Source of the DNA: Urechis unicinctus
Lineage: Eukaryota; Annelida; Polychaeta; Xenopneusta; Urechidae
Assembly: GCA_034190875.2 (NCBI GenBank)
Contig: CM067357.1
Span: forward strand, 15,339,327-15,403,326
Direction: 5' to 3'
Length of the DNA stretch: 64,000 nucleotides
Shown here: in pieces, positions 6,194-58,579 of the stretch
Position numbering within the stretch: the first letter of the stretch is position 1
How the letters are laid out: every line of letters begins with the position of its first letter
Made by a program: the position numbers and the translations under genes
Notes under the pieces: generated by a model
What the model was told of the DNA's origin: nothing
The model's input: only the letters and a program-made list of their open reading frames with translations
The model's database searches: none

Positions 6194-6313
6194 TAGCCCA
6201 AAAGACCAACGTCAGGTTCTATTTATCACCTTGTCGGTCCAACAGTTTAAAGGTGCATTTTTTCAAAAAAATCGAATCGAAAAAAAAAGTTGCTAACTGC
6301 AAGAGTACCCTAA

Positions 6314-12040: not shown

Positions 12041-12259
12041 TTCGTCCCGGCGAGGGCATTTTTGTCCAGGGGCGTTTTTGATCATTGCATGATTTGACTG
12101 CATCTAGTGTATTAGTTCCTGCTGTCAAAAGAAATGTTTTCCATATAGTGTTAGAAACTAGAAATAGAACCGTTGAAAAATAATAGTAACAAGGGTGCGA
12201 AAATTGTGAAGTTTGCAAGTTTGTTTACTGTTTTGATCGAATGGACGACTGACTGCCAG

Positions 12260-12445
12260 GAATGTCAGTGATTTTTTTTCCAAATTGTATCTCGTTTAAA
12301 TTAAAACCGAAGAAAGCTATACTCATGAGGTTTATAAAAAGGTATGTTTCATTTTTTATAAGTCAATTAGAAAAAAACAGTTATAGAAGTTTCAAATTTT
12401 ATGTTTTGGTCGGTTTTATGCCGAAATTGTACGGTAAGGGATAAC
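12260..12445. repeat. Interspersed repeat (Rep2), left copy
   Basis: This AT-rich segment occurs again at 47630-47790 (right arm) and, more diverged, at 41430-41560. Shared words include CTAATTGACTTA and CCTCATGAGTAT. Its nature is unknown. Confidence 0.6.
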
Positions 12446-12460
12446 AGCCACTTAAATCAG

Positions 12461-12491
12461 TCGATCTTACCAAGACTCTGGGTAAGATCGA
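12461..12491. repeat. Short perfect hairpin
   Basis: TCGATCTTACC (12461-12471) is the exact reverse complement of GGTAAGATCGA (12481-12491), with a 9-nt loop. It is conserved in the right arm near 47580-47610. Confidence 0.8.
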
Positions 12492-12691
12492 CCGATTTGT
12501 AGTATGTTTGTGAGTTTTCTGAATATTTATAAGCTATTTAGACACTGTTTGTTTACCTGATATAGCATATTTCCCTTCAAATAAGTAATCATTGGAGGTT
12601 ATTTCATTGGACGTGAGCGATAATCCAATAATATCATGAATTTAGCCAAGTAGGATTTCATAACGCGAGGTGCTCTATGATTCTGTCTGTG

Positions 12692-14725
12692 ACACTTATA
12701 AATAGAAATATTAAGCCAAAATATGAACATAACCACCATAAAACCAACAAACACACATGGGATATTTATCCAACGTCTGTGACCATCTGGGGATTGTCGC
12801 ATTGGGGATGTGTTGAAGATTTTGTCTTCTAATTGGTCGTAGTGGCCGCAATCCGAAATCTATCACAAAAAGTTTGTGGCAATAGTTCCTCAATGTCGCA
12901 TAGTTTTGCGGCCCTTTGATACTTTGGATTGTGCCATTGAATACAATCAGAGTCTATAGCTTTGCTAAGTGGGTTCACTTCGAGTGGCTCTGTTTGTTCG
13001 TGCGTTAAATCGAGTTAGTGCCGTTTTTGGCTACGTTGGCCATGTACGCAAATGTGGCTCTGTGGTGATCACTCTTCTAATTATAATACACTGCTATCGT
13101 TAGCAAAGCCCTTCCACTGCAAAAACACGTCCGACACATGGTTAAAGATAGCGATATGAAAACTACAATAACAATTAAATGTCAAAAAGTTAAATTGCCC
13201 GGATAGACCTGTCAAAAAAACAGCTCGTCTCTCACAGATTCCGCTGTTCGCTATTCTCGATCTTTAATTCAAGATTGTCAACAACCTTCTGGAGCGAGGG
13301 AACTGGCCGGGGGTAGACTTTAACATTTGTCAGTTTGCCAGGGACATGTGGAGATCTGGAGTATAGAGTTTAAAGCTTCGCTAAACTGAGTGGGGAAAAG
13401 GAAATAAAATGAAATGAAATGCAGCGCCTTCATTAGGCGACGATTCTATGAAATCAACAAACGCACATGGGATTGTTGATCCGACGTCTCGGGGTCGGCG
13501 ACTGTGAAAGACATGGCGTCATCTGATTGATCGAGGTTTCCACTGCTCCGAATTAAACAGAGAATTCCATGTGATTTTAAGGGTCGCTATGACCAGTTAA
13601 CGCACGGCGCCTAACAGGTGGCGTCTTCTTGGGCTGAGGCTTGAGTGATCACCCTAAGCGATGCTATACACTCTTTGATACAATGTTAAACCATGAACGT
13701 TGTGATTTAGTCTCGTCATAACGTTTAGTTGAGAATCATGGCTAAACTTCACAAAAGTGTGACGAATATGTTCGCTATCATAACAATGTCGTCAGGGGTT
13801 TGTTTAAGCCTTTGTGCTGGAGCTCATGTGGTTATTGGGTTCTTCTTCTCGGATTATCATAAAATGAGAAATATTTCCTCTTCAACGAACTTATTTGTGC
13901 CCTCTGTTTAGAACTTTCAACATCGAGATCAATTTCACAGACGCTCAACAAATAAGCTGTATGTACCACCTTTACTCATATGACCATTAGGACATTTCTT
14001 TAAAGCAATTGTAATCATCCGCTGAATGCAGACATTCAATGGGAATATCCCATGAATTCCTTCATCTTCCTCCCAGTCACTGCCAAGGCAGCTTACCACA
14101 GTCGTATTGGTTTACACGCTTGAAACTAACCAACCAGCGAATCCATTGATAAATTATTATGGCCTCATCTGGTTATTAAGACAATTGACACTTATTTAAA
14201 TGAAGCAGCATTGTCTTGATTCCTCAGCTGCGGAATATGAAAGGGGCCATCGTTAGTTCTTAGGCTATTCTCCCGTAGCGTAAGAGATATCAAGTTATGG
14301 CCAGATGCTGGCAGGGTATTATTCACTGTAAGTGAACTAGGCTTATAAGTTCCCCATGTAATGTAGAATGTCCAGCTTCCCGCTAAATAATATGTCCCAT
14401 ATTGTTGCCTTGACATCAATGTGATCAGTCTGTCAGGTCAGACTGTGGTTCTTTTGTTCGTGGGAACATGGAGTTGAAGCTATTATCGTTTTCAAGTTAT
14501 TCACATTCATTTATCAGTAAGAGTACATTAAAGTCAAGTAAACTGTGCTTGAACCAATAATGCCGAACTATGGTTACGTTCTCGCCCATATATCCACATG
14601 TCATGTTGTTAAAATATGTGACTATGCGTAACTTCTACTACTAAATTATTATCATTCCAATACATTGTTCAAGCGGTTGTTTGAATTTATTCAATGTTTT
14701 AAAAGATCACATAAATATGTGTCAC
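12692..14725. other. Upstream region of ZNF2, no supported gene
   Basis: Shared with 45430-47385. It contains segments paralogous to the ZNF1 flank (12880-12960; 13690-13740) and to the ZNF3 flank (14050-14130 and 14330-14520 match 31180-31340 and 32000). Short frames, such as 13729-13911, are open in both arms but show no domain. First exons of ZNF2 could lie here but cannot be fixed. Confidence 0.45.
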
Positions 14726-14734
14726 AGGAGAATT

Positions 14735-15740
14735 CTAGCTGATTGAACCGAATACACCAGAATGGAAGACGTTAAAGCAGTCATAAAACTGAAGGTCCCT
14801 GATAATGTCAGCGATGGATTCGCTGGTGTGAATGATGAATTATACTCTGACAGATCTGCTTTGCTACAGTATTAGAAAAAGGACAGCATTGATTATGGCA
14901 CCTCCGACATAAATTCCGAATGTCGCTATGAATTGGGAGCTCCTGGCATGCCTTTCCCTCCGTCTGGTTCCCTTGATAATCAGGTAGCGAATTACGCCAC
15001 AGAACATTCTGGACTTGTGCAAGATGAACAAAACCAATGTGATGTCGAAAAAACATATTTTAAATGGTACTGACAATCAAACAAGCTGTAAGACTACGCA
15101 GACAGGCGAGGGGACTTTGAAATGTAACACAGGTGTAAACTCCTATGACCGAAATGCACGCTTGATAAGACACATGAACACGCATACTGCACCAGGACCA
15201 TATCGGTTGTTCAGTAGGGAAAGCAATCAAAACAGACACATAAAAACTCATACTGGTAAAAAACCTCACAAATGTGAGGTTTGTGGAAAGTTCTTCAGCT
15301 ATAAAAGCTATCTGAAAATCCATGAAAGATCGCATACTGGTGAAAAACATTTCAAATGTGACGTTTGTGGAAAATTCCTCGGCTATGGAAGTGCTTTGAA
15401 AAACCAATGTGACATTTGTGGAAAGTCGTTTGCTCAAGTATATAGTCTGACTGGACATATTAGAACGCATACTGGTGAAAAACCTTATAAATGTGACATT
15501 TGTGGAAAATCGTTTGCTCACGGAAATAATCTGACTAAACATATGAGAACACATACTGGTGAAAAACCTCATGAATGTGACATATGTGGAAAATCGTTTG
15601 CTCAGGTAGGCGGTCTGACTGCACATATGAGAACGCATACTGATGAAAAACCTTATAAATGTGACATTTGTAGAAAGCCGTTTGCTCAGGGATGTGATCT
15701 GACTGGACATATGAGAACGCATACTGGTGATAAACCTTAA
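14735..15740 (+). pseudogene. ZNF2, left copy: C2H2 zinc-finger gene with leader nonsense mutation
   Basis: The exon follows a conserved acceptor (GTCACAG|GAGAATTC, about 14729). The leader frame [20 protein letters not shown] runs from 14762 and is stopped by TAG at about 14874, where the right arm has TAT. The finger frame (15015-15740) is offset from the leader frame in both arms. It holds one degenerate finger, a C-x2-C finger (HKCEVCGKFFSYKSYLKIH), and a deleted hybrid finger in which LKN runs straight into QCDICG. Four good fingers with TGEKPY-type linkers follow. The array ends at GDKP-stop, yet another finger start (KCDICGKPFAHGG) follows the TAA. With a stop, a frame offset and a fused finger, this copy is probably not functional. 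Confidence 0.7.
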
Positions 15741-15744
15741 AAAT

Positions 15745-16074
15745 GTGATATATGTGGAAAGCCGTTTGCCCATGGAGGAATTCATACACAACGCATGTTG
15801 ATGAAAAATTTATAATTGTGGAAAGGTTTTCATCTGTGGAAGTAACTGAACGAAAAATATTCGAACGCATATTGGTAAAAACTTGACAAAATATGACATT
15901 TGTGGATAGTCTTTCAGTGTTCGACATATTCAGAATCGTAATGATGGTGACGTTTTACATGTATGCCTTCATATTTATTTACGACATTAATTGTTATAGT
16001 ATGTATGTATAATTCACTATGATTAAAAGCAATTTTCATTATAGCAGGTTTAGCTGTCTTAGGCTCATAGAAAA
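15745..16074. other. 3' flank of ZNF2
   Basis: It contains the residual finger after the stop codon and a 3' region similar to 4160-4370 and 29750-29890. This supports a common ancestor of the three ZNF loci including their 3' ends. Confidence 0.6.
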
Positions 16075-16370
16075 TTTAACGCTCATTAAGGATCTTTTAA
16101 ATATATGACTGATAATTTTGTCAACTAGATACAATAAAGCTAGCATCGTGGATATCAGTATGTTCGTTCAGGAATTCAAGTCTGACATGATTGGGTTTTC
16201 CATACTTTTGAAAACAGGGAACAATCGACACGGGTCTTTCGTGCTGATTTCGTTTGACAGGCCATTTTTGAATATGTGTATAACACGTGCTAAATTAAGA
16301 CAACGCCTGTTTATTGAGATATTTAGGCAGTGTATCAGTTGTTTTATTCTTATTTACTTTAAATAATAGA
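16075..16370 (-). mobile_element. LINE-A RT fragment behind ZNF2, left copy
   Basis: The minus strand carries the same RT start region as 3795-4080, with FPVFKSMENP in place of LPCFSKVLEKP in shifted frames. It lies behind the fingers in the same relative position and orientation as at ZNF1, so it was probably present before the ZNF1/ZNF2 duplication. Confidence 0.65.
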
Positions 16371-16858
16371 ACAAGAATAATCACCCCATCCATGCTTTTA
16401 GCTAGAGAGAGGTCTAGGCGTCATTTCGTCGCCCCATTTTACAAGGAAGCACCCTAAAATCCATCAAAATCGCTATAAGATGGAAGATATCCAGCTTTTG
16501 TAATTGTTGTCAAGACAATGGCGTCTTCTCGTTTGCTATTTTGCCGACCATTACGCAAATGGTTGAATCGAGCTGATAAAAGCAACGTTCTCTTTGGATT
16601 CGAAAGCAAGGGTTTAAAAGTTCTCATTTGGTTCGGCTGAAGATTGCTGGACAAATATAATTTATCGAAGCTTGCTAATTAACCACTTTTCCTGTTCAGC
16701 TTCTCTACTGACACATATATTTTTGAAACTTTTTCAACATAAAGAGAAGAGATGGAACCCAGAGAGCTATTTCCAGCTTCTTTTGAAAGAGAAGTCAGGT
16801 TAAGATACTTAAAGTAACTTTTATTTATTTTTTATTTTTATTAATATATATATTAGGT

Positions 16859-19119
<2,261 letters not shown>

Positions 19120-19544: not shown

Positions 19545-21299
19545 ATGCAACGGAGCATGCAACGGTTTATTGGCCTGGCGGTGTTTGTATCAGTGATGTC
19601 GTTTTGGAAAAGCAATCATTTTCAGTTACCTGGCTTTAATTCAGGTAATCATGGATATACTTTGAAAGCACAGATGCAAAATACAAGTAATCCAGCTATG
19701 CGATTTATAGAAATGATTTTAAGCAAGCTGCATATTTGCAACTGTCCGAGTGGTTAATACAAGTGCCGGGAGCCTGAAACAAGACAATGTGGAGAAAAAA
19801 AAGCTCCTTAGCCATAATATATCAGCTGTGCAACGTGGCAAATTAGCCAAGACAGTATTCATCAGACCACTAGTTGAGCACCGGAATATCTCTGCATCCA
19901 TCCCTTTATGCCCACATGGTAGCCTTGGAGAGGCAAGAATATACGAGAACCGGCAAACGTTTATCCCAATATGCGGGTAAAGCATATGTTTATTCGGCAT
20001 ATTATGATGCTCGCATAAAAGGCAAAGAATTAGTTAGGGGCATCGGATTCCGAGATCACTGTAATATTACGTGTATACTGTGGTATGGCACGAATCGCTG
20101 TCAAATTGTAAGAGCAACTCAAATCTCTTCCCACCGCAGCAGACCGTGAGTATATGTTACATCCCTGTAGTCATAATGGTACAGCGTGATCATCACAATG
20201 AATTTATAGATGTGTTTTATTTGAGAGGCTAACGTTCTTTGCCACTTAGTTCGATCATGGGATATGGACTGGCAATTTAATTTGCGTTCTCTATTTCAAT
20301 ATTGACATGTAATTGTCCAGTCATTCATTCAACATTTTAACATATATTCTTTTGCTTCAATATTCCAGAGGCAGCGTTGATAGCTATTTTATATGCGAAT
20401 CATCTAAATGGAGCAGGTCAATTCCTGATTATGTTACATTTATCAAACAAGATGATTTAAACAACTGCAGCACCATAAGCTACGCTCTAAGATTAGAAAA
20501 CACAAAGGTAACGGATCCACTTCAGCACAACGTCAGTGTCTGTGTTCACTCGCCTATCCATTCAAATTATTCTAATTCCTATCAGTTAACCGAATTTGTG
20601 GAAGTTTATATGATGCTGGGTGCAACAAAAATAGCCTTGTATAATTCCACTGGAAGTTCTGCTCTTCGACCTGTTGTGGAACATTATGTAAAACAAGGAG
20701 TTGTTGATATAGCTTCTTTCTGGAGACCTGCTGATGTGCGCAAGATTCACTATCATGGTCAGTTTACGGTCATTCAAGATTGCGCCCAAAGGTACATGTA
20801 TCGAACCAAATACTTAATACTTGTAGACTTGGATGAATTATTATTTCCAAGCAAACATAATACAATACTAGATATGATTGAGGCAAGCACTTGCCGGAAT
20901 TATGCGGCGATAAGACTTCACTCATTTATTTTCAACATAGACCTCCCACCAAATCCTGTAATCGCAAGTAATACCACAGTCACTAGGCTGCGGCCGCTAT
21001 CGTTGTTACACACCGAACACGCAAGTAGATCATGCTGCTATAAATATATCATTCAACCAAGAGCGATACAAGATTGTGAAATACATAATGCCGGACGCCT
21101 CGTACAACAACAAGAAGACTTGAAAACCCGAATAAATGTTGATAATTGCCAACTAGAACGAGAGCTTGGATATCTTCACCACTACAGGAAGTGTGGCAAT
21201 GCTACCAACGCTGTGGATGGGTTCGAAGCTCATCGATTCTTTGACAAGATCATTGTTCGTTTACAGCGCATACAACGCGCTCTTCAGCGTTCGCCGTAA
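19545..21299 (+). CDS. GT92-family glycosyltransferase, spliced, with one apparent frameshift
   Basis: A family 92 (former DUF23) glycosyltransferase, which transfers a sugar such as galactose in the Golgi. Exon 1 starts at 19545 with a short type II signal-anchor (RFIGLAVFVSVMSFW) and has a donor at 19644/19645. Exon 2 (start uncertain, about 19730) encodes a stem region and the family motif AYVYSAYYDAR, ending at 20145 (ACC|GTGAGT). Exon 3 (20369-21299, acceptor TATTCCAG) keeps phase across the intron. It carries VCVHSPI, LTEFVEVYMMLGATKIALYN, the DXD-like YLILVDLDELLFP, and the late LHHYR motif, then a stop. Inside exon 2 the frame breaks at GCGGGTAA (19975-19980): one G too many separates FIPIC from the GKAYVYSAYYDAR frame. 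This is either a sequencing error in a G run or a disabling mutation. Confidence 0.75.
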
Positions 21300-30021: not shown

Positions 30022-31560
<1,539 letters not shown>

Positions 31561-42379: not shown

Positions 42380-43274
<895 letters not shown>

Positions 43275-43773
43275 AAACCTAATATATATATATTAATAAA
43301 AATAAAAAATAAATAAAAGTTACTTTAAGTATCTTAACCTGACTTCTCTTTCAAAAGAAGCTGGAAATAGCTCTCTGGGTTCCATCTCTTCTCTTTATGT
43401 TGAAAAAGTTTCAAAAATATATGTGTCAGTAGAGAAGCTGAACAGGAAAAGTGGTTAATTAGCAAGCTTCGATAAATTATATATGTCCAGCAATCTTCAG
43501 CCGAACCAAATGAGAACTTTTTTAAACCCTTGCTTTCGAATCCAAAGAGAACGTTGCTTTTATCAGCTCGATTCAACCATTTGCGTAATGGTCGGCAAAA
43601 TAGAAAACGAGAAGACGCCATTGTCTTGACAACAATTACAAAAGCTGGATATCTTCCATCTTATAGCGATTTTGATGGATTTTAGGGTGCTTCCTTGTAA
43701 AATGGGGCGACAAAATGACGCCTAGACCTCTCTCTAGCTAAAAAGCATGGATGGGGTGATTATTCTTGTTCTA

Positions 43774-44080
43774 TTATTTAAAGTAAATAAGAATAAAACA
43801 ACTGATACACTGCCTAAATATCTCAATAAACAGGCGTTGTCCTAATTTAGCACGTGTTATACACATATTCAAAAATGGCCTGTCAAACGAAATCAGCACG
43901 AAAGACCCGTGTCGATTGTTCCCTGTTTTCAAAAGTATGGAAAACCCAATCATGTCAGACTTGAATTCCTGAACGAACATACTGATATCCACGATGCTAG
44001 CTTTATTGTATCTAGTTGACAAAATTATCAGTCATATATTTAAAAGATCCTTAATGAGCGTTAAATTTTCTATGAGCCTA
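43774..44080 (+). mobile_element. LINE-A RT fragment behind ZNF2, right copy
   Basis: Mirror of 16075-16370 with one or two substitutions. Confidence 0.65.
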
Positions 44081-44409
44081 AGACAGCTAAACCTGCTATA
44101 ATGAAAATTGCTTTTAATCATAGTGAATTATACATACATACTATAACAATTAATGTCGTAAATAAATATGAAGGCATACATGTAAAACGTCACCATCATT
44201 ACGATTCTGAATATGTCGAACACTGAAAGACTATCCACAAATGTCATATTTTGTCAAGTTTTTACCAATATGCGTTCGAATATTTTTCGTTCAGTTACTT
44301 CCACAGATGAAAACCTTTCCACAATTATAAATTTTTTGAGGTTTTTCATCAACATGCGTTGTGTATGAATTCCTCCATGGGCAAACGGCTTTCCACATAT
44401 ATCACATTT

Positions 44410-45388
44410 TTAAGGTTTATCACCAGTATGCGTTCTCATATGTCCAGTCAGATCACATCCCTGAGCAAACGGCTTTCTACAAATGTCACATTTATAAGGT
44501 TTTTCATCAGTATGCGTTCTCATATGTGCAGTCAGACCGCCTACCTGAGCAAACGATTTTCCACATATGTCACATTCATGAGGTTTTTCACCAGTATGTG
44601 TTCTCATATGTTTAGTCAGATTATTTCCGTGAGCAAACGATTTTCCACAAATGTCACATTTATAAGGTTTTTCACCAGTATGCGTTCTAATATGTCCAGT
44701 CAGACTATATACTTGAGCAAACGACTTTCCACAAATGTCACATTGGTTTTTCAAAGCACTTCCATAGCCGAGGAATTTTCCACAAACGTCACATTTGAAA
44801 TGTTTTTCACCAGTATGCGATCTTTTATGGATTTTCAGATAGCTTTTATAGCTGAAGAACTTTCCACAAACCTCACATTTGTGAGGTTTTTTACCAGTGT
44901 GAGTTTTTATGTGTCTGTTTTGATTGCTTTCCCTACTGAACAACCGATATGGTCCTGGTGCAGTATGCGTGTTCATGTGTCTTATCAAGCGTGCATTTCG
45001 GTCATAGGAGTTTACACCTGTGTTACATTTCAAAGTCCCCTCGCCTGTCTGCGTAGTCTTACAGCTTGTTTGATTGTCAGTACCATTTAAAATATGTTTT
45101 TTCGACATCACATTGGTTTTGTTCATCTTGCACAAGTCCAGAATGTTCTGTGGCGTAATTCGCTACCTGGTTATCAAGGGAACCAGACGGAGGGAAAGGC
45201 ATGCCAGGAGCTCCCAATTCATAGCGACATTCGGAATTTATGTCGGAGGTGCCATAATCAATGCTGTCCTTTTTATAATACTGTAGCAAAGCAGATCTGT
45301 CAGAGTATAATTCATCATTCACACCAGCGAATCCATCGCTGACATTATCAGGGACCTCCAGTTTTATGACTGCTTTAACGTCTTCCAT
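44410..45388 (-). pseudogene. ZNF2, right copy: C2H2 zinc-finger gene, leader intact
   Basis: The leader frame [20 protein letters not shown] is open from 45388 to 45077 (103 codons), unlike the left copy, which has a stop at codon 38. It ends at FKWY-stop. The finger frame (45135-44410) overlaps it by about 58 bp in another frame, so leader and fingers are still not joined unless an intron or frameshift resolves this. Upstream of MEDVK, the codon that is GGA in ZNF3 is TGA here. The finger content is as in the left copy, with one residue changed (KIHKRSH versus KIHERSH). The array ends at GDKP-stop with a further finger start beyond. It could use an alternative start at 45135 (MCKMNKTNVM). 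Functional status is uncertain. Confidence 0.6.
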
Positions 45389-45429
45389 TCTGGTGTATTC
45401 GGTTCAATCAGCTAGAATTCTCCTGTGAC

Positions 45430-47380
45430 ACATATTTATGTGATCTTTTAAAACATTGAATAAATTCAAACAACCGCTTGAACAATGTATTGGAATGATA
45501 ATAATTTAGTAGTAGAAGTTACGCATAGTCACATATTTTAACAACATGACATGTGGATATATGGGCGAGAACGTAACCATAGTTCGGCATTATTGGTTCA
45601 AGCACAGTTTACTTGACTTTAATGTACTCTTACTGATAAATGAATGTGAATAACTTGAAAACGATAATAGCTTCAACTCCATGTTCCCACGAACAAAAGA
45701 ACCACAGTCTGACCTGACAGACTGATCACATTGATGTCAAGGCAACAATATGGGACATATTATTTAGCGGGAAGCTGGACATTCTACATTACATGGGGAA
45801 CTTATAAGCCTAGTTCACTTACAGTGAATAATACCCTGCCAGCATCTGGCCATAACTTGATATCTCTTACGCTACGGGAGAATAGCCTAAGAACTAACGA
45901 TGGCCCCTTTCATCTTCCGCAGCTGAGGAATCAAGACAATGCTGCTTCATTTAAATAAGTGTCAATTGTCTTAATAACCAGCAGAGGCCATAATAATTTA
46001 TCAATGGATTCGCTGGTTGGTTAGTTTCAAGCGTGTAAACCAATACGACTGTGGTAAGCTGCCTTGGCAGTGACTGGGAGGAAGATGAAGGAATTCATGG
46101 GATATTCCCATTGAATGTCTGCATTCAGCGGATGATTACAATTGCTTTAAAGAAATGTCCTAATGGTCATATGAGTAAAGGTGGTACATACAGCTTATTT
46201 GTTGAGCGTCTGTGAAATTGATCTCGATGTTGAAAGTTCTAAACAGAGGGCACAAATAAGTTCGTTGAAGAGGAAATATTTCTCATTTTATGATAATCCG
46301 AGAAGAAGAACCCAATAACCACATGAGCTCCAGCACAAAGGCTTAAACAAACCCCTGACGACATTGTTATGATAGCGAACATATTCGTCACACTTTTGTG
46401 AAGTTTAGCCATGATTCTCAACTAAACGTTATGACGAGACTAAATCACAACGTTCATGGTTTAACATTGTATCAAAGAGTGTATAGCATCGCTTAGGGTG
46501 ATCACTCAAGCCTCAGCCCAAGAAGACGCCACCTGTTAGGCGCCGTGCGTTAACTGGTCATAGCGATCCTTAAAATCACATGGAATTCTCTGTTTAATTC
46601 GGAGCAGTGGAAACCTCGATCAATCAGATGACGCCATGTCTTTCACAGTCGCCGACCCCGAGACGTCGGATCAACAATCCCATGTGCGTTTGTTGATTTC
46701 ATAGAATCGTCGCCTAATGAAGGCGCTGCATTTCATTTCATTTTATTTCCTTTTCCCCACTCAGTTTAGCGAAGCTTTAAACTCTATACTCCAGATCTCC
46801 ACATGTCCCTGGCAAACTGACAAATGTTAAAGTCTACCCCCGGCCAGTTCCCTCGCTCCAGAAGGTTGTTGACAATCTTGAATTAAAGATCGAGAATAGC
46901 GAACAGCGGAATCTGTGAGAGACGAGCTGTTTTTTTTTTTTGACAGGTCTATCCGGGCAATTTAACTTTTTGACATTTAATTGTTATTGTAGTTTTCATA
47001 TCGCTATCTTTAACCATGTGTCGGACGTGTTTTTGCAGTGGAAGGGCTTTGCTAACGATTGCAGTGTATTATAATTAGAAGAGTGATCACCACAGAGCCA
47101 CATTTGCGTACATGGCCAACGTAGCCAAAAACGGCACTAACTCGATTTAACGCACGAACAAACAGAGCCACTCGAAGTGAACCCACTTAGCAAAGCTATA
47201 GACTCTGATTGTATTCAATGGCACAATCCAAAGTATCAAAGGGCCTCAAAACTATGCGACATTGAGGAACTATTGCCACAAACTTTTTGTGATAGATTTC
47301 GGATTGCGGCCACTACGACCAATTAGAAGACAAAATCTTCAACACATCCCCATTGGCTTAATATTTCTATTTATAAGTGT
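45430..47380. other. Upstream region of ZNF2, right copy
   Basis: Mirror of 12692-14725. It includes the SINE-free site near 46035-46060 that is homologous to the SINE insertion point at 31561-31983. No supported gene. Confidence 0.5.
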
Positions 47381-47386
47381 CACAGA

Positions 47387-49366
47387 CAGAATCATAGAGC
47401 ACCTCGCGTTATGAAATCCTACATGGCTAAATTCATGATATTATTGGATTATCGCTCACGTCCAATGAAATAACCTCCAATGATTACTTATTTGAAGGGA
47501 AATATGCTATATCAGGTAAACAAACAGTGTCTAAATAGCTTATAAATATTCAGAAAACTCAAAAACATACTACAAATCGGTCGATCTTACCCAGAGTCTT
47601 GGTAAGATCGACTGATTTAAGTGGCTGTTATCCCTTACCGTACAATTTCGGCATAAAACCGACCAAAACATAAAATTTGAAACTTCTATAACTGTTTTTC
47701 TAATTGACTTATAAAAAATGAAACATACCTTTTTATAAACCTCATGAGTATAGCTTTCTTCGGTTTTAATTTAAACGAGATACAATTTGGAAAAAAATCA
47801 CTGACATTCCTGGCAGTCAGTCGTCCATTCGATCAAAACAGTAAACAAACTTGCAAACTTCACAATTTTCGCACCCTTATTACTATTATTTTCAACGGTT
47901 CTATTTCTAGTTTCTAACACTATATGGAAAACATTTCTTTTGACAGCAGGAACTAATACACTAGATGCAGTCAAATCATGCAATGATCAAAACGCCCCTG
48001 GACAAAAATGCCCTCGCCGGGACGAAAGGTAAGGTAAGTATAGGGTTTTAACGGCACACCAACACTAGTGTGTTATATGGTGCCTACTTAAGGAGGGGTA
48101 AATACGAGTACGAAAGGATAAGAAGGAGTCAAGGGTTAAAACTAACTAAAAATTAAACCCATTAATATTAATTGAATTATATGAATTGAATTATATATAA
48201 TAATTTGAGAATTGTATGGTCTAAAATCTATAGAAAAGTCCAATCTCTCTTATGAATCCGAGTATCTTGGATGGATTCACCCTTTCAAATAATTCTGAAA
48301 GGGTTTGAACTCGGAAGAAGCGATTTCGGATCAAAATCAAATCAGCACATTCGATGAGAATGTGCTTGACGGTGTAGGTACATTGACAAGGAATGCATTC
48401 AGGGATGGGCTCATCCCTTAGTAGAAAGGCATGAGTTGTATAGGTGTGTCCTATACGAGCGCGAGCAAGAATAACCTCCTCTCTTCTGCTCTCTCTGCAG
48501 CTCTGTGGCCACTCCCCAAGTAAGGGCTGAATTTCGTGAAGTTTGTTTGGGATGGATTCATCCCGCTGGTCCTGCCATTTCTGTTTAAAAAATTGGACGA
48601 CTTGAGGTTTAAAGTCTGTAAAGGGAACTTTGACCTCAGTCACATTCATGTTGAGGGCTTCCTTGGCAGCTCTGTCTGCCCTTTCATTACCAGGGATACC
48701 AACATGGCTCGGTACCCATACAAACAAAATATCCTTGCCACGATTTGTCAATTGAGAATATAAAAGCACAATATTTAAAATAAAAACATTACGGAAATTA
48801 CTCCCTCTTATTGCCTCCAGGGCAGACAGGGAGTCGGAAAATATTGGCTGAAGCTCCAATTTTATTGTCCTCTTTCGAACCGTCTGTGTAAATGGCAGCA
48901 CAGTCCGAACATTTATCCTGTACCGATGCGGGTGTCCTGTCTGTGATAAATTATTATCAAACGTCTCGTTTATGTGTCAAATCGTCCAACGAAGGCACCT
49001 CCCTTCATATGACAAGCAACTTACTATTTTCCCTGATGTAAATCCGGTCAGAGCTCAACGAAAATTATGTAGGACGAGTCAACGAGGAGCGAAATTCCGA
49101 ACGCGGCAATTTGTTTACTATTTCAATCGGAATCGACGACTCCCATAAACTCTGTTGCTTAGGTAATATCGATTGATCGGCAGTATGTTTTCATGTTTTC
49201 TAAATGTTTTTAAGCTATTAAGACATTGTTTATTATTAAATATGTAGCTTATTCCCTTCAAGTTAATTTTCGTAAACCTTATTTGTAGGTACTTGAGCGA
49301 TAATCCAATCATCTCATGACTTCAACCATGGTGGATATCATAACGCGATGTGGTCTATGATTCTGC
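47387..49366. mobile_element. Terminal-inverted-repeat element with nested LINE-B, right copy (more complete)
   Basis: The inverted ends of about 220 bp are at 47387-47600 and 49137-49366. Both point outward with CTATGATTCTG at the outer edge, and both contain GAGCGATAATCCAAT and CATAACGCGA. A LINE-B fragment sits between them. The outer 86 bp of the 49137-49366 repeat are missing in the left arm. No transposase was found. Confidence 0.55.
48028..48940 (-). mobile_element. LINE-B 3' fragment, right copy
   Basis: Mirror of 11130-12040, with the same internal deletion in the RNase H domain and two residue changes (I/N and W/R). Confidence 0.8.
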
Positions 49367-49369
49367 TTG

Positions 49370-50104
49370 GTAGTCAATATTTGGCCTCTGCACCCCCCAC
49401 TAGCTCTTTCGAACTAAGTACTATATGCACTCCCTCTTAGTTCTGGCGTCCAACGATAATTCCCGACATAAGTCAACGGAATTATCAAGAGTTCCGCTGC
49501 TTTACCTAGTTTTAGCTAATAAAATCAACTCACAAACATTTATAGGAACAGAAGCTGAATTTCAGCAACAACAGTATCCTGTGAATTAGTATTTTTGGCG
49601 TAAAACACACCAAACGGTAATATCTGAGCCCGACTTGGTAACATGGCGGCGAGGCGGCGGAAACTAACCAGCGGGAGGATACACCAATTGGAACATAGGC
49701 GAGACAGCTCACAAGACGCGGGTTCACAGGGACCATTTGTGTCACAAAGCTAAAAGCTAAAATGACCTTGTCTAACATGTAGAAAAGGCCATTAACATTC
49801 ACTGTCGCACAAATATCACACCGAATCACGAAGAAAGCAACGAAAACCTGGGGAAAAGGCGACAGGAGTTATCAGCAATAGTTTTTGCCTATGTTCTCGC
49901 CGCCTTATTTACATCGGAAGTTTCTGGGGCTGTCTGGGATATCGTCCTCCGCGCTTGTATTTCGGAAGAAAATATCACCGGTAAACTTGGAAAGTTATCG
50001 AAAATATAGTTTTCCGCAGACGATAGGAATATGAAACATTATCTCCAACCGAATTAGATAATAACTTTCGACACTGATCGCCCGAAACTCGTCGTTTCAG
50101 AAAA
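49370..50104. other. Arm sequence without recognised gene, right copy
   Basis: Mirror of 9990-10780. The open frame at 49530-49829 is unsupported by any domain. Confidence 0.4.
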
Positions 50105-50116
50105 ATGCAGTTCTGG

Positions 50117-50203
50117 GTTGATCGAATGCATCGACCAAAAAAAACTGTGGACCGAGGTTCTAGGGACGTTGATCGAATGCATCGACCAAAAACCCCCCCC
50201 CCC
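50117..50203. other. Transposon-2 empty or altered site with duplicated filler
   Basis: Where the left arm has transposon 2, the right arm has GTTGATCGAATGCATCGACC followed by a short A run at 50117-50141. The same sequence repeats at 50168-50192, and a run of C follows (50193-50203). The left arm contains this sequence once (10001-10021). The site is therefore not a simple TTAA empty site. Confidence 0.75.
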
Positions 50204-50642
50204 CAAACCTATGAGTAATTTGCTAACATAAAATCAAGAAACGCTTATGGGCTATTGATTCAACATCTATGGGGGCCTCAATGGACATGTGTTGATGATA
50301 TATAGTCTTCATTTGACTTCTGATTGGGCCCTGAATCGATCAGAAAATTCCATATGAGGCTGTGACAAAGCACTGCACTGCTCGCGGGTGACGTGTTTTC
50401 TTGTCTTGTCAGCCAGAGTCAGCTCTTTGGAGTCATTCCACAGCAACTGTTTTGTTGTGGCGAGAAAATGTGCACAATCAACACCCAGGGCTGACGGGTG
50501 ATTTTATGGCCGGACTGGTATACCTAGGTTAATCACGTCCGGCTGATGGGTCACTTTACATGGTGAACAATGTTTTTTTATAACACAGACTGATAAGAAC
50601 ATAGGGATCCTGTTGAGACAAATCAGGGTGTCATCTGAAAAC

Positions 50643-50672
50643 GTATATATATATATATATATACATATATAT
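50643..50672. repeat. (TA)n microsatellite, short form
   Basis: The counterpart of 5651-5717, shorter by about 35 bp. Confidence 0.95.
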
Positions 50673-51345
50673 TTTTGTTTAGAGATAATTTTGTTTGTGT
50701 TATATTGTTGGTACCGTATTGCTGGGCGTCCAGGCTTACCGTTGGAAGACAGGCCGTTGGCGCTTGTGCAGACTCTAAGTAAGCCAAGCCTTATGTAATC
50801 GACCAGTGGCGTGTGTGTGTGTGTGCATCGAATTATAGTCGTGTTTAGCAACTAGGCTTTATACGTCTAGCAGTGAGTGTGTAACTCTGAGGGTGGTCAC
50901 TGCCAGGGAGCCCGTCGTCCTCAGAGGATCTTTTACATCCCTTTTCAGAGATGGGACCGCCATTTGAACGTGATCAACCGTGTCACAAGTAACCAGTCAT
51001 GTTGTCACACCTTGGAGCCACATTTTGTCGGTCGAAAGGCGAGGCAGTATTTTTTAGCCTGCCTCTCTTGTATCATTCATTTACTAGGCCAATGTCACAT
51101 AGTTTTGAGACCCTGTGATACATTGGATTGTGCCACTACACACTGTTCGACCATTAACGTTATGGATTAGTCTTGTCATAACGTTTAGTTGAGAATCAGG
51201 TCAAAAACTACAGGGCCTTAAGGCATGATAAGAAACAATACTTAAGTGTGACCAATAGGTACACTTTCATAACAATGATGTATTAAAAGATCACATGAAA
51301 ATAGCTATTGATTCATGAAAATGTGTTACAGGAGAATTCTAGCTG

Positions 51346-52683
51346 ATGAAGTATCAGCATGGAAGGCCGCTGATGATGTCAATGATGGATCTTCGTATTG
51401 CTTCATCAATGGACTCAATATTAAAGCCCACTAAGAGAACGCATACTGGTGTTAAAGCTTATAAATGTGACATTTGTGGAAAGTCGTTCGTTGATGGAAG
51501 CAATATCAAAAGGCATAAAAGAACGCATACTGGCGTAAAAGCTTATAAATGTGACATTTGTGGAAATTCGTTCGCTGATGGAGGCAATATCAAAAGGCAT
51601 AAAAGAACACATACTGGTGAAAAACCTTACAAATGTGACCCTTGTGGAAAGTCGTTTGCTCATGGAAGTTATCTGACAGAACATATGAGAACTCATACTG
51701 GTGAAAAACCTTACAAATGTGACATTTGTAGAAAGTCGTTCACTCAAGGAAGTCATCTGACAAGACATATGAGAAAGCATACTGGTGAAAAACCTTTCAA
51801 ATGTGACACTTGTGGAAAGTCATTTGCTCATGGAAGTACTCTGACAGAACATATGAGAACGCATACTGGTGAAAAACCCTACAAATGTGACCCTTGTGGG
51901 AAGTCGTTTGCTCATAGAAGTCATCTGACAGGACATATGAGTACGCATACTGGTGAAAAACTTTTCAAATGTGACACTTGTGGAAAGCCATTTGCTCATA
52001 GAAGTTCTCTGACAAGACATATGAGAACGCATACTGGTGAAAAACCTTACAAATGTGACCCTTGTGGAAAGTCGTTTGCTCATGGAAGTTATCTGACAGA
52101 ACATATGAGAACGCATACTGGTGAAAAACCTTACAAATGTGACATTTGTGGAAAGTCGTTCACTCAAGGAAGTCATCTGACAAGACATATGAGAAAGCAT
52201 ACTGGTGAAAAACCTTTCAAATGTGACACTTGTGGAAAGTCGTTTGCTCATGGAAGTACTCTGACAGAACATATGAGAACGCATACTGGTGAAAAACCTT
52301 ACAAATGTGACCCTTGTGGAAAGTCGTTTGCTCATGGAAGTTATCTGACAGAACATATGAGAACGCATACTGGTGAAAAACCTTACAAATGTGACATTTG
52401 TGGAAAGTCGTTCACTCAAGGAAGTCATCTGACAAGACATATGAGAAAGCATACTGGTGAAAAACCTTTCAAATGTGACACTTGTGGAAAGTCATTTGCT
52501 CATAGAAGTTCTCTGACAAGACATATGAGAAAGCATACTGGTGAAAAACCTTACATATGTGACACTTGTGGGAAGTCGTTTGCTCATAGAAGTACTCTGA
52601 CTGGACATATGAGAACGCATACTGATGAAAACCCTACAAATGTGACACTTGTGGAAAGTCGTTCACTAAAGGAAGTCATCTGA
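51346..52683 (+). CDS. ZNF1, right copy: 14-finger C2H2 zinc-finger protein
   Basis: 445 codons with 14 canonical C2H2 fingers from about residue 38, each 28 residues including the linker. Fingers 3-4-5, 8-9-10 and 11-12-13 form a three-finger, 252-bp higher-order repeat: SYLTEH, SHLTRH, then STLTEH or SSLTRH. Variation between fingers concentrates at the presumed DNA-contact positions 3 and 6. Finger 15 is lost to a single missing A in a run (DENPTN replaces DEKPYKC), after which the frame ends at 52683. The exon acceptor TGTTACAG|GAGAATTC is at about 51331. Read from there, the frame matching the ZNF3 leader ends in a stop before the fingers, so the leader from 51346 is a different frame. 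It may be N-terminally altered. A nuclear DNA-binding role is inferred. Confidence 0.75.
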   Translation: MKYQHGRPLMMSMMDLRIASSMDSILKPTKRTHTGVKAYKCDICGKSFVDGSNIKRHKRTHTGVKAYKCDICGNSFADGGNIKRHKRTHTGEKPYKCDPCGKSFAHGSYLTEHMRTHTGEKPYKCDICRKSFTQGSHLTRHMRKHTGEKPFKCDTCGKSFAHGSTLTEHMRTHTGEKPYKCDPCGKSFAHRSHLTGHMSTHTGEKLFKCDTCGKPFAHRSSLTRHMRTHTGEKPYKCDPCGKSFAHGSYLTEHMRTHTGEKPYKCDICGKSFTQGSHLTRHMRKHTGEKPFKCDTCGKSFAHGSTLTEHMRTHTGEKPYKCDPCGKSFAHGSYLTEHMRTHTGEKPYKCDICGKSFTQGSHLTRHMRKHTGEKPFKCDTCGKSFAHRSSLTRHMRKHTGEKPYICDTCGKSFAHRSTLTGHMRTHTDENPTNVTLVESRSLKEVI

Positions 52684-52699
52684 CAAGACATGAGAACGC

Positions 52700-52999
52700 A
52701 TGCTGGTGAATTTTTTTACAAATGTGACAACAGTGGAAGTTATCAAGCGAAACATATTCGAACGCATACTTGACAAAATCTGACATTGTCTTTTAGTGTA
52801 TGACATATTAAGAATCGTAATGATGATGACGTTTAACATGTGCGTTCATGTTTATTTTTGTCATTAATTGTTATTGTATGAATTTATAATTCACTATGGT
52901 TAAAAGCTATTGTCATTATTGATTGTATTGCTGTCTAGGGCTTAAAGAGAACAATTAAATGGTCATTCAAGATGGGTTACGAATATATAACTGATCATT
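52700..52999. other. 3' flank of ZNF1, right copy
   Basis: Contains the remnant of finger 15 and the conserved ZNF 3' region around 52800-52930 (AATTGTTATTGTATGAATTT). No gene. Confidence 0.55.
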
Positions 53000-53700
53000 T
53001 TGTCAACTAGATACACATAACACTAACCTAATTAGTGCCGTAGTTTTTACGAAACCCCATTTGCTATTGATACAACAAGTGATATTTGTTCAGGAATTTA
53101 TTGAGTCTGACTTTATGGGTTTTTCCAATACTTTTGAAAAGCAGGGAAGAATCGACACGGGTCTATATTTGCCAATTTCGTTTCACAGGCCATTTGTGAA
53201 TATGGTACAACACGTGCTCAATAAGGACAACACCTGCTTAGAGATATATTTAGACAGTAGATCAGTGGCTATAATATATTATTTTTCCTTTTAGTAATAG
53301 AACTAGAAATATCGTCCCATCCACAATTGTTAAAGCCACTGATGATGTTTATACCTTCACGTTCATTCGTATTACTAACAACGAAAGTTTGCGCGTTTGG
53401 ACTCGAAATAGAAAAATAGAAAATCTTGTTGATTGGGGAATGTTGTTTGCAAGATTCTGCTCAATATTCAGGTACAAATGCTTAAATTTGTTGGCTATGA
53501 CATTTTTATGATCGACAATTTGACCATCAATACAGAATTGAGAAATTGTGACCTGCTTGTTCTTGTTTGGGACTGTTTTGATAAGGTTCCATGTATCACG
53601 CATGTTATATTATTTGCTTTAATGACGTCTTAATATTTGGGCTCACATCGTCCCTGGTATAAGTGTTGGGGGCCGATAACAACACCAACTTCAATATTAG
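53000..53700 (-). mobile_element. LINE-A fragment, right copy
   Basis: Mirror of 3390-4080: endonuclease end, ORF2 linker and RT start, all frame-broken. Confidence 0.75.
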
Positions 53701-54161
53701 TGTGACACTTACTTGATTTCCAAAACATAGATAGCAATAATAAAGTCTGCATAGTCGTCATAATGTTAACTGCAATATTGGCAACTTACATGGTACACAA
53801 AACCAATTGCTTTCTCGATCAATATCTAAGTTATCACCTCTGCTTACTATGGGCAAATATTTAAGATGGACGCAGCAAAAACATATTGAACACTTCAGTT
53901 TATATGAGTGAGAGTGTAATCGCAGAGAGAAGTGTAGTGTCCAACCATAAGTTTTGATAAGTATCGGAATTATCTCCTACATGGGGGTAGTGTTCTAATA
54001 CTATTCTGGCTCATACACTTTTAAAAAGCCCCCCCCCCCCCACCCCTTAAGTATCAGCACGCCTGCCTAGGTTGCATTCGACCACTTAGCGGGGAGAGGT
54101 TTAACCCTGATAGTACAATCCTTATAGCCTTGACTCGCATGCGTGTCCACCCTCCAAATGG

Positions 54162-54705
54162 ACCTGTCGTGTCACGTCGAGATTGTGAGCCTGGCCTATC
54201 GTGCGGACCGGTCAAGGGTCGCGAGAAAGAAAAGCCAGCTGACCGGGGACCCTTTATTAGGGCCACACATGGGTTAGTCAAGGGAGAGATTCATCTAGTC
54301 AAGACAAGATTCAGACCGAGACCCAGGGAAGCTTCATTGTTGAAACCTAAACAAAACCAATAAGCATATCAATGTTAGTAATGTTTAGTGTCATTTTGTG
54401 TTTGTATTTATCTTGCTAGGGGATTTGCAAGCCATATCAGTGTGATCTTTAAACTACTTTATTCATATGTGTTTAATTGACGATTTATCAATGAAAGTGT
54501 TTGAACAATTAACTGCTTTATTTACTTCCTCTGACGTATTTCAAATGAATAACCATTAGAACAAACGTTGACGCAAATTCGGAATAATTCGCGATATATA
54601 TAATGAGAGGCATGGAATAATTATTCCTTTAGATCCAATTATAGTATTAACTAATACATTAATAAAGCCATTTGGGAAAATACGTTAACTATACTGTGCG
54701 TCATG
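54162..54705. other. Right-arm-specific 544-bp block
   Basis: Absent from the left arm, where AAGCAACTT joins CCATTTGG directly at 2930/2931. One frame across it (54130-54363) reads basic and Pro-rich (MRVHPPNGPVVSRRDC) but has no domain I recognise. No terminal repeats or target duplication were seen, so a deletion from the left arm is as likely as an insertion here. Confidence 0.7.
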
Positions 54706-55520
54706 AAGTTGCTTCAGCTTGTGACGAGACCATATTGCAAGCCTCGTATAATATGCCTTTGTGTACTACGGAAGCTTAAGAAATGCACATAAATTTTTCT
54801 TGCTGCTAAATTTAACATTTTCAAATAGCATATATTTTTAACTATATGTGCACAAATATCTTCTTGTTAATAAATTTGCAGGTGAGAATTCTACTGTTTT
54901 GTCAGATGATGTCTGATCTCAATTTAATACACGGAATTACTAACAGTTGCAATGCTACGTTTGAATAATGTCATATATTTGTTCGATCCAACATACAACC
55001 TTGTCAAAATTGTTAAATATACCATGCAAGTGATCTCCTAAAACTATTAGTTTGAAGTTTGAAGGCCAATGAATAGGCAAACATAAGTCGATGAGCAAAT
55101 TCGCCCCTTAAGCAGAGACCTTCCGTCGATAGGTAACCAAATGTTGAACAACCAAAAGTACAACATAATCATGAATATATAGCTGGTATACTTTGAACCT
55201 TATACTACTTAGATATAGTGCCTTCATTACTGAGATATGAGGAAGCGGGGTAACAACATCGAATAAACAAAATGCACAGTTTTGGGTTGCTATTGTTGCT
55301 GGGCTGGGCAGTAAATGGGTGAAAGGGTGCTACTTAAAGGTCAACTACAAAGATTTTTTTTATTCCATTTTTCCAAAGTTCTATGTTTTAAAAGGGTATC
55401 GTGACCATAATAAGGTGACTGCGCGCTTATTTTCTTTTAGAAAAATGATTTTTAAATGTATATTTCCCACGTCGAATCTGACAAGATACCGCTCGGTAAA
55501 ATTCGTGAATGTCCGTACAG

Positions 55521-55528
55521 TGACGTCA
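55521..55528. promoter_or_regulatory. CRE palindrome upstream of THAP transposase
   Basis: TGACGTCA, 110 bp upstream of the THAP start codon; mirror of 2118-2125. Confidence 0.45.
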
Positions 55529-55637
55529 TTCGGGTTGTTTGCGAATATTCATCGCCATCTTTAGCCTTCCCGGTTGGTTGACAGCGTGTGACTAACTCGT
55601 CTTTCTTCACGGTCTGGTGCGTTTCTTGGTGTGGATT

Positions 55638-57134
55638 ATGCCTTATTGTTGTGCGTTTGGTTGTCGGAACAATGAGAAGTCAGGCGTGACTTTTTTGTTT
55701 CTAAAAGAGATATGCGCCGCATATGGGTGTCGAAAGTCAAGCGTAAACACTGTAGTCCTGCCCTTATACTAGTTATACGACAGTTCTATGTTCTGATCAT
55801 TTCGAGAAAAGTGCTTATGAGACTGACCCAGAGCTGCTCAAAAGTCTAGGATTTCGTAAGAAACCTAGGCTCCGAAATGGTATTGGCAGCTGAGCAGATA
55901 GATAAATCTAGTGACAGTGGTGAATCACAGACTGAGGTGTCACACTCAAGTACTGCCGACCTAGGCTAGGCGAAGAAACTTCGCCTGTCAGCGTCCGCGC
56001 TGTTTGCTACACGAGGGGCGAGTGCCTTGCCGTCTGCCGACCATGAAGCTTGCTCTCACTTGTCATTGGGGGTGCAGGCAAATGTTTTGGTGAGTGTCAC
56101 AAGGCAACTGCATTATTATATATGATGAAATGCATTGGCGGGGATAACTTCTGTTGTATGTATCCACGTGTCTTTTCAGAGTCAATTTGTAAACATTTAC
56201 ATCCTTAAAGGCTATGATGAATGAAATTGTAGCATACTTATTGTATTGATACCATAGATGGCTGACAAGTCTCTACAGACACAGAGTTCTATCTTTCCTG
56301 GGATAAAGATATATTCAAGAGGTACCCAAGTTGGCCCACATCACCAAAAGTGTCACCAGGGGCACCCAATATGAGCCCCAGGAGGAATCTGTTGGACTGA
56401 CTTCACTAACGAAGTGATGATGCTGAGATGGATACTGATGATGACATGGCGTTTGAAGAACTGTTAGGTAAATATTGTTTTGTTTGTAGTGTAATCACAG
56501 GGTTTTATTTGATGGAAGAAAAATTTAGCTCACAGAATGCTTATGTACAGTGGTGTTGATCTGGAGGATGGCCCTAGTCAGAATCAAAGATACCGGGGGA
56601 GTATTGCTTGTTTTGAACAAATCGGCGTGAATGAACACCGTAAGATGTGGGATTACCAACCTTTTACAGGAGCTATGCCCGCAGGAAATTTGTTCATGGC
56701 TTCAGGGATTTTTGTAAGTGGCAGTAGTGCTATTAGAACACTGAACATGTTCAGGTATGGGAAAATCCCAAGCCTGTCAAAGTACCAATTTCTTTTGGTG
56801 TGAACATGCATTAATCTAAAATGAAACACATGTTATTACCGAAACCTGAATAAGTTTCATTTGCACAAACATTGTTACCCAATTAAAAATTGGCATATAA
56901 TATTATATGACTATCATAAAATATGAATATCATTGATTTGCTTCAGACTATGTACATCAGGTGCTTGATCTAAGGCAAAAATACCCAAGCTACAGACTTG
57001 CTGAGGTCCTTGCAGATGACAGGACTGTCCCACCACCTATTGCCCCCCAGTACGAGAAACCTGAAAAGGATCTTCTCGTAGGTGCTCACAGGTGTCGATT
57101 CAATCTGACCAAGAAATCTTCCGCTCCATTGTAG
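55638..57134 (+). pseudogene. THAP-domain Kolobok-type transposase, internally deleted and frame-broken
   Basis: The THAP zinc finger starts at 55638 with MPYCCAFGCRNNEKSG (first two cysteines). In another frame it continues RRIWVSKVKRKH (invariant W and basic patch), then in a third frame CSDHFEKSAYETDPELLKSL (the C-x2-H pair). A fourth frame holds a Ser-rich linker. At least three frame breaks are needed. A middle exon (about 56537-56803) has QPFTGAMPAGNLFMASGIF and FRYGKIPSLSKYQF, the conserved block before the catalytic domain in Kolobok transposases. The last exon (56947-57134, acceptor TTTGCTTCAG) reads KYPSYRLAEVLADDR, then VPPPIAPQYEKPEK, as in their C-termini. The DDE core is missing. 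A THAP protein would bind the transposon ends; this copy cannot transpose. Confidence 0.7.
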
Positions 57135-58263
57135 ATAACCTGTATATTTGCCGCCCGGGTCAGGGAAGGATTTTCTAACAGCTGTTACTACACAGGCTGC
57201 CAGCACTTTCCTGTTTCTTTTGCCCAGTCTGTGCCATATCCAGAGTGTAAACTGACGGTAGGCTAGATACCTGAATAATCTGAAGCAATATGTCAATTAG
57301 TTGTCTATGGTTTTAAAATAAGTTGTGTAGTTAAAAAAACAATTGTCATTTGTCAACCATTCCCTCACTTCATAATGTTATTGTAAGCTCTGCCTCTGGA
57401 TTTCATGTAACTGGCATTATTTATTCTTGGCTATGTAAAATATATTGTAGTTCATCGATATGAACAATGAATATTTTGCACAGTGGAATTAATGTTCCCT
57501 TTGTAATAAATATGATTGTTCAACCTCAACCCATCCTTTTTGGTAGCAATAATGGCTAACTTACTCATTGTAGAGACCTCATCTCCAACAGGTCTGTCCA
57601 TTTGAATAGATTAAAATTTGGACACTATCAGCACATTTTTATTCATGCAGCTAGCCAGGAATCTGGGATGCTTGGTGATGCATGTCCATTCCTCCGTTAG
57701 AGCCATCACTCTCTCCAAACTTCTATAGCACTCTCTGGCTTTGTCCATTGGGATGCAGTAATGACATCTACACCTAACTTAGAGAAATAATTAAAGAGTC
57801 ATTGTAAATTTATATTTGTGGTACAATGAATGAATATAAAAGGAAAATACTTTATAAACTGCATGCAAACATCTGTCCACAATATTCAATGTGCTCAGGG
57901 TACAATGACAAAGCTACATTCACTAGCCAAGTACTATTTGTTGTTGTAGTTAGGTCTGTCAACATACCATCCTCAACTTACAGAATGTGTAAATTTATTG
58001 GGTAAATGAAACTAACGATTATTTTATACCAGTTAATATAGTTCAATAAAGCTTGGGAAGGGTATTCTAAAACTTACCATTCATCGAAATCTTTTGTTGA
58101 TTCTTCATCCGAAGCGGACCCTTGAATTAGCTCCCGGTGTCATTTCGTAGTGTGACTTGGATTTTTCAACTCCCGTCCGTATTGGTTCAAATAAATAGTC
58201 ATGGACATGATTTGCCCCAATTTTATGCTATGGGGACTGGTAAACTTCATCAGAAGAAGTCAT
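56970..58263 (-). pseudogene. P2RX7_C-like (P2X7 ballast-type) domain gene, three exons
   Basis: Exon 1 (58263-58078) starts MTSSDEVYQSP, with an in-frame TAG at 58228-58230, and ends in an acidic segment (SDEESTKDFDE) at donor GAATG|GTAAGT. Exon 2 (57773-57565) opens after TTAG with TGTAGATGTCATTACTGC. The split codon restores W, giving the family signature W-C-x-C-x2-C-x-x-M, then EEWTCITKHPRFLASCMNKN. The frame stops soon after VLIVSKF. Exon 3 (57279-56970, acceptor GCTTCAG) has YLAYRQFTLW through DPGGKYTGY. The matching splice phase and ordered motifs show a real spliced gene of the P2RX7_C family, now with a nonsense codon and frame breaks. It converges on the transposase, and its last 50 codons are antisense to the transposase last exon. 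The family's biochemical role outside P2X7 receptors is unknown. Confidence 0.75.
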
Positions 58264-58361
58264 GGCTTGTCAAAACGGTGTAATTTTAAAATCCAAACAA
58301 TCGTTTTTCGCTTCGCTCGCTCGCTCGCAGTCAAATTCTCTTGGAGTCAGCGCAGCAGGAA

Positions 58362-58369
58362 TGACGTCA
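58362..58369. promoter_or_regulatory. CRE palindrome upstream of P2RX7_C-like gene
   Basis: TGACGTCA about 100 bp upstream of the exon 1 start at 58263 and 206 bp inside the transposon end. It gives the element a CRE-bearing promoter region at each end. Inferred role. Confidence 0.45.
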
Positions 58370-58579
58370 CGCAACGTGCACCTAGCGGCCAACTGAGGCA
58401 AAATGGCATCGAGAAGATGGCTTCGTATTTTCTTCCGAATGAAACCTTATCGGTGGATTTTTAGTACTTATGCATGCCGTTGCAATGAATTATGGGTCCC
58501 CGTTGTTTTATGGGTTATTAATCTTCAGTTTGAAACACATTATAAAGAAATGATGAAAATCGTTAAAGTTGACCTTTAA

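Follow-up and report, generated by a model that had tools for sequence, protein, structure and literature searches.

Our analyses point to a defective member of a high-copy family of Kol0-type Kolobok transposons in the genome of Urechis unicinctus, and we hold this reading, taken as a whole, to be highly probable. The DNA transposon spans 3,238 bp (55338-58575) of the window, by which we mean the whole stretch of 64,000 nucleotides that was analysed. Its ends, the TTAA duplications, the remnants of two genes, its copies, the defects common to them and the traces of past purifying selection are all directly observed. The ancestor would have been a Kol0-type Kolobok with two proteins encoded tail-to-tail, a THAP/DDE transposase together with KolX, which is small and has the zinc-binding ballast domain of P2X7. 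Such an autonomous ancestor would have excised itself and inserted at TTAA, with the transposase cutting at the termini, and KolX would have been retained by selection for propagation of the element, its most likely role being to assist or regulate the transposase. In the window family, both the transposase core and the function of KolX would later have been lost, and this family may have spread because its ends were still recognised by transposase made elsewhere in the genome. We infer both a mobilisation of the family in trans and that KolX served as a cofactor of transposition; the evidence for the latter is its co-maintenance with the transposase.

The two gene remnants

The following features were assigned (window positions and strand):

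1-2312, minus: second copy of the element insertion, truncated at the window edge, with the flank in common; it lies in one arm of an inverted duplication
55334-55337, no strand: left TTAA target-site duplication
55338-58575, plus: Kolobok-type (Kol0-like) transposon of 3238 bp, apparently non-autonomous, with 5'-AG...CT-3' termini
55338-55369, plus: left terminal inverted repeat, imperfect
55638-55881, plus: THAP DNA-binding domain of the transposase, broken, in three frames (PF05485, 39.9 bits read through)
56937-57134, plus: presumed C-terminal transposase stretch, conserved in the sister family
57120-57285, minus: KolX exon encoding the second half of the P2RX7_C ballast, AYRQF...FPDPGGKYTGY (PF20478, 30.5 bits; exon limits inferred)
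57611-57773, minus: KolX exon with the Cys-rich first ballast half, C-R-C-H-Y-C ... CITKHP (3' limit inferred)
58078-58263, minus: presumed first KolX exon with acidic N-terminus (in-frame TAG in 11/11 rows keeping the segment)
58544-58575, minus: right terminal inverted repeat, imperfect
58576-58579, no strand: right TTAA target-site duplication

On the plus strand, the THAP score was obtained by joining three frame pieces (MPYCC...CRNNE, ...IWVSKVKRKH and LCSDHFEKSAYETD) with X at the breaks, and exceeds the cut-off of 23.9 bits; the first piece by itself reached 11.4 bits with the Pfam profile, far under this cut-off. Two frameshifts interrupt THAP in this copy, one at a T run and the other at 55769-55774. 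THAP and the stretch 56937-57134 are the plus-strand blocks common to the window copy and the sister family. No profile identified the latter stretch, with a Pfam match of 14.1 bits against a cut-off of 27.

On the minus strand, the frame 57296-56970 matches PF20478 at 30.5 bits (cut-off 23.5) over positions 145-191 of the 192 in the profile, i.e., its last quarter. The Cys-rich exon 57773-57611 alone gave no PF20478 match, and its counterpart in L022 of the sister family remained below the cut-off at 17.4 bits. By eye, the splice sites ...GAATG/GTAAGT and TTAG/G TGT AGA TGT delimit a GT...AG intron and yield E-W-C-R-C-H-Y-C. In the window KolX, WCxCx2C is intact, the CC pair has one of its two Cys, and the CIT and AAC Cys are present; WCxCx2C, CC and the following C are kept in all nine aligned KolX rows. 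An AlphaFold model of KolX from a nine-sequence alignment had a mean pLDDT of 49.7 and was too poor for a fold search. As an identity for the Cys-rich exon, PIF2 was rejected, since its 18.9 bits lie below the cut-off of 25 and we read the match as a chance similarity of Cys-rich sequences; joined to the next exon, the match rises to 24.3 bits.

The earlier note on this DNA had described a TTAA-flanked element with matching termini, a second gene on the opposite strand with a P2RX7_C domain and an intron whose phase rebuilds the W-C signature, and all of this is borne out. It had further proposed a THAP plus Kolobok-type transposase remnant. The THAP part holds when read through the breaks, but the Kolobok catalytic domain is unconfirmed in the window copy.

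KolX might also be a repressor or dosage sensor of transposition, responsive to zinc or guanine nucleotide, instead of a helper, which we regard as rather unlikely. Sites for zinc and for GTP/GDP are present in the P2X7 ballast (PMC9859053, PMC7016195), the guanine-nucleotide residues being R546-H547, R574, R578 and K583 in rat numbering (PMC7016195). Judged by eye, KolX of the L009 type, from another family of the same genome, keeps the R-H pair and R578, with R574 and K583 replaced. The window family, however, lost the R-H pair (YLAYRQF), and its copy retains only the Arg at the place of R578 (by eye). As the R-H pair and R578 occur in the L009 type and the site is not kept in the window family, it follows that nucleotide sensing is not general on present evidence.

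Probable assignment to Kolobok

Our preferred assignment of the element to the Kolobok superfamily starts from its boundaries. The TTAA duplications at 55334-55337 and 58576-58579 enclose inverted ends, AGGTCAACT, that are identical in 28 of 36 aligned columns with TTAA counted in. According to the published definition, Kolobok transposons have TTAA duplications and 5'-RR and YY-3' ends (PMC9587614); those of Xenopus start with AG, and a THAP domain is usual for the Kolobok transposase (PMC6004289). The window element shows 5'-RR...YY-3' termini (AG...CT), the 4-bp TTAA duplication, which is also found in eight of 15 independent further copies, and the THAP domain (39.9 bits versus 23.9, two breaks bridged). 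Moreover, as in Kol0, there is a second gene, KolX, with the P2X7 ballast (PF20478, 30.5 bits; 41.2 bits in the sister L022).

The catalytic domain (DDE core) of Kolobok was not found in the window family in three comparisons. Patterns that we set for the D, D, C/DxxH and E motifs had no match in the window element, and the same patterns occurred in L012 and L013; tblastn with the Kolobok-like L013 transposase gave no match within the window; and no catalytic-core block common to the window copy and the sister family was found. The D, D, DxxH and E motifs have a catalytic role. An additional zinc-finger pattern, also set by us, matched 0 of 13 sequences and was probably mis-set. Because the window family has no detected DDE core, its filing under Kolobok rests on the ends, TTAA, THAP and KolX.

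It is very improbable that the element is a piggyBac-type or other TTAA transposon, although TTAA duplications fit both and no DDE core was seen in the window copy. The termini of piggyBac are CCY...GGG, whereas the window ends read AGG...CCT and the element has a THAP domain. A few piggyBac families do carry a KolX-like protein, but the published cases are described as being without most of the seven Cys (PMC9587614), while the C-x-C-x2-C half is kept here.

Compared with known Kolobok transposons, the window element is like the published Kol0 in its TTAA, its RR/YY ends and its second protein with P2X7 ballast (PMC9587614). It differs in that its family is defective in both genes, in its THAP domain, a term with no occurrence in the Kol0 paper, and in the tail-to-tail order of KolX, which parts 1-3 of that paper do not describe. 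XKol and T2-MITE of Xenopus likewise have TTAA, AG termini and a THAP transposase, and their non-autonomous derivatives are classed by their ends as here (PMC6004289); this likeness is one of published description, and that paper has no occurrence of KolX. KolobokP, too, belongs to the Kolobok superfamily, and its second gene likewise runs on the strand opposite to the first. In contrast to the window element, this gene is a His-Me nuclease instead of KolX, and KolobokP has long terminal direct repeats (~450 or 660 bp); with no direct repeat of at least 40 bp within the window element, the KolobokP type is ruled out.

Copies, related families and selection

The first 303 bp of the element gave 953 first-look candidates in the 1.19-Gb genome, and the best 40, which were scored, were all 98-100% identical, more than chance would give. 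The window's own copy is one of these 40, and from the other 39, 16 were fetched. L029 is the second window copy with a common flank and was left out, so that 15 independent further copies remain, a non-random sample drawn from the 40 best left-end matches. Sequence of both KolX and the transposase is present in 13 of them, several with internal losses. The earlier note had named copies with the same termini but no P2RX7_C gene as evidence against a real association, and the remaining two (L032, L043) are without this gene in the fetched stretch. KolX exon 2 is complete in 11 copies, partial in two (L038, L045) and absent in the same two (L032, L043). Both ends with TTAA on both sides were found in L030, L033, L039, L040, L041, L045, L046 and L047; in the other seven, an end has been lost, is clipped by the limit of the fetched stretch or falls beyond it. 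Over the 3.3 kb obtained for L032 and L043, only the left 436-440 bp of the element are present, and both lose the transposase sequence at one identical point. Judged from this left-hand part, they are probably broken derivatives.

The copies share defects in both genes, which the earlier note had missed. In the presumed first KolX exon, a TAG follows soon after the ATG in 11 of 11 rows (the window and L029 counted separately); the segment is absent from four of 15 aligned rows, and 8 bp are missing from it in the window copy, L029 and L033. A deletion in the Cys-rich exon is common to several copies, and L040, L044, L045 and L047 give one identical broken frame. From the first-exon TAG, the deletion in the Cys-rich exon and the THAP frameshifts, we conclude that both genes of the window family were probably defective by the time it spread. 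It thus looks non-autonomous.

The spot 55769-55774 (CCCTTA^TAGTTA) is unusually variable. Among the 17 rows compared (window, L029-L034, L038-L047), eight have one form and seven, representing six events, have different short changes; at this spot L032 and L043 exit the element into DNA unrelated to each other. This points to breakage at the spot on several occasions, or to a cryptic end similar to CCTTTAA. Separately, L031 contains about 830 bp (428-1255) nested in the window-family copy, with AAACACT repeated on both sides, like a second insertion.

The window itself has a large inverted duplication, in which 1-17131 and 43004-57633, pieces 95-100% alike and in mirror order, lie around ~26 kb; it may be a true duplication or an assembly artefact. 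Its common flank rules out the left-hand copy (L029), a duplicated copy that the earlier note had missed, as a second insertion. C2H2 zinc-finger genes with 84-bp repeats, named by eye, sit in the duplicated arms and in the spacer (4380-4982, 14988-15740, 30022-30786, 44410-45162 and 51343-52683), and the paired arrays 4380-4982 and 51343-52683 differ in length. The window further contains an open frame of 328 aa (20313-21299, plus), which looks like a family-92 glycosyltransferase, and, once per duplication arm, a frame of 251 aa (11092-11847 and 48221-48976) that resembles a non-LTR retrotransposon in its terminal RNase H part.

Tail-to-tail (convergent) pairs of KolX and transposase also occur in three other groups of the genome, the L018-type, the L011/L012/L013-type and L009/L010/L017. 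In the second family, the sister family (L018, L020-L028; ten aligned copies, 95-99.8% alike), the gene order is as in the window, with THAP at 46 bits in L018 and KolX on the opposite strand at 41.2 bits in L022 exon 2. The catalytic core was not found there with either the L013-transposase search or the motif patterns. The third family (L011, L012, L013) is ~6.8 kb long and has TTAA at both ends in 3/3. In L012 and L013 the motifs D, D, DxxH and E come in this order, spread over presumed exons; L011 is without the D2 pattern. The convergent KolX exon of this family reaches 100 bits with PF20478, a score obtained for L004, which is one and the same locus as L013. Among PDB entries, P2X7 chains are matched by the L013 exon at E 2e-16; of 17 candidates that the L013 KolX domain gave in a protein database, 0 reached E 0.001. 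The fourth family (L009, L010, L014, L016, L017) has KolX scores that go up to 106 bits, this value being that of L001, which is one and the same locus as L009. On the opposite strand, similarity to transposase was found in three of its five members (L009, L010, L017), and none in L014 and L016.

In two of these families there are further frames. L014 has a second, different KolX-like C-terminal half (TAYRQFVRWCWGHLGQ; 6127-6468, minus), ~1 kb from another KolX and in opposite orientation. Upstream of KolX, on the same strand, L013 (6553-5936, minus), L011 and L012 have a Cys-rich frame, frameshifted in L011. Its spacing in L013 is C-x-C-x3-C-x3-C-x-C-x6-C-x3-C-x-C, which we take to be CXC/TSO1-like. 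By eye, splice sites would fuse this frame to KolX in phase 0 in L011, L012 and L013. The frame had no Pfam match even at E 10, and its ratio of 0.82, from 48 codons, gives no clear sign of selection; hence we do not claim the fusion.

For the window copy versus L022, pN/pS was 0.348/0.782 and 0.206/0.799 in the two KolX exons, 0.154/0.944 in the C-terminal transposase stretch and 0.140/0.703 in THAP; with synonymous sites near saturation and stretches of 31-51 codons, these ratios are rough. KolX is constrained here, yet less than the THAP and C-terminal transposase stretches. Between L013 and L015 the ratio was 0.34 for KolX and 0.52 and 0.58 for the transposase, with three and two transposase stop codons set aside and none in KolX; only in this comparison is KolX tighter than the transposase. 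Within families, differences were few and no clear constraint was seen. Judging from these sequence comparisons, both genes were maintained by purifying selection before the families decayed. Since both diverged under purifying selection, their pairing is not accidental.

We give hardly any credence to an accidental association in which a Kolobok copy would have picked up, on a single occasion, a P2RX7_C gene or pseudogene unrelated to it that then spread along as passive cargo: both genes of the window family do look dead, so that nothing there now separates cargo from accessory, and two of 15 copies are without the P2RX7_C gene in the fetched stretch, but the tail-to-tail pair recurs in families whose KolX domains are only 30-36% identical (L013 versus L009 type), the ballast domain was under selection while families diverged, and there is an independent published report across animals (PMC9587614). 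Because the ballast domain was under purifying selection, we prefer the accessory reading to that of passive cargo, and that several families keep the tail-to-tail pair together with a constrained ballast domain argues for a working accessory protein. The suggestion that P2RX7_C proteins travel with Kolobok, as cargo or as accessory proteins, thus gains from 13 of 15 copies and three other groups, with the accessory version favoured.

KolX and the origin of the P2X7 ballast

Previous work reported that the Kol0 lineage of Kolobok encodes a transposase and KolX, that KolX matches residues 476-595 of human P2X7 with seven conserved Cys, that P2X7 originated when a P2X4-like gene was fused with KolX from a Kol0 Kolobok, and that Nanor likely is a domesticated KolX (Kojima & Bao 2022, PMC9587614). 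This paper was the sole find of a literature search for KolX and Kolobok. The central idea of the earlier note, with its bearing on how P2X7 acquired the domain, is therefore a rediscovery, and the principle that the P2X7 tail stems from a transposon protein is already published; added here is independent support from one genome. The P2RX7_C domain was found across Metazoa by Rump et al. 2020, in whose text 'transpos' is absent (PMC7016195). The P2X7 ballast and Nanor share with KolX the PF20478 profile, a conserved A-Y-R and, in part, the Cys clusters and an Arg of the GDP site, but unlike the window element they are host proteins without transposase or transposon ends (PMC7016195).

We may speculate that KolX is a dedicated transposition factor, with a ballast half that senses zinc or guanine nucleotide and an N-terminal half that, in at least the L011/L012/L013 family, would be a Cys-rich DNA-binding module; we consider this improbable. 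If true, a regulator of transposition that was bound to DNA would be the source of the P2X7 ballast, through its sensor half.

A genome search with PF20478 gave 2,592 first-look candidates, and the best 150, the only ones scored, were all above the curated cut-off. The exon of the window falls outside these 150. P2RX7_C is hence a high-copy repeat in this genome, with at least 150 places, and in invertebrates an annotated P2RX7_C gene may in many cases be a remnant of a transposon.
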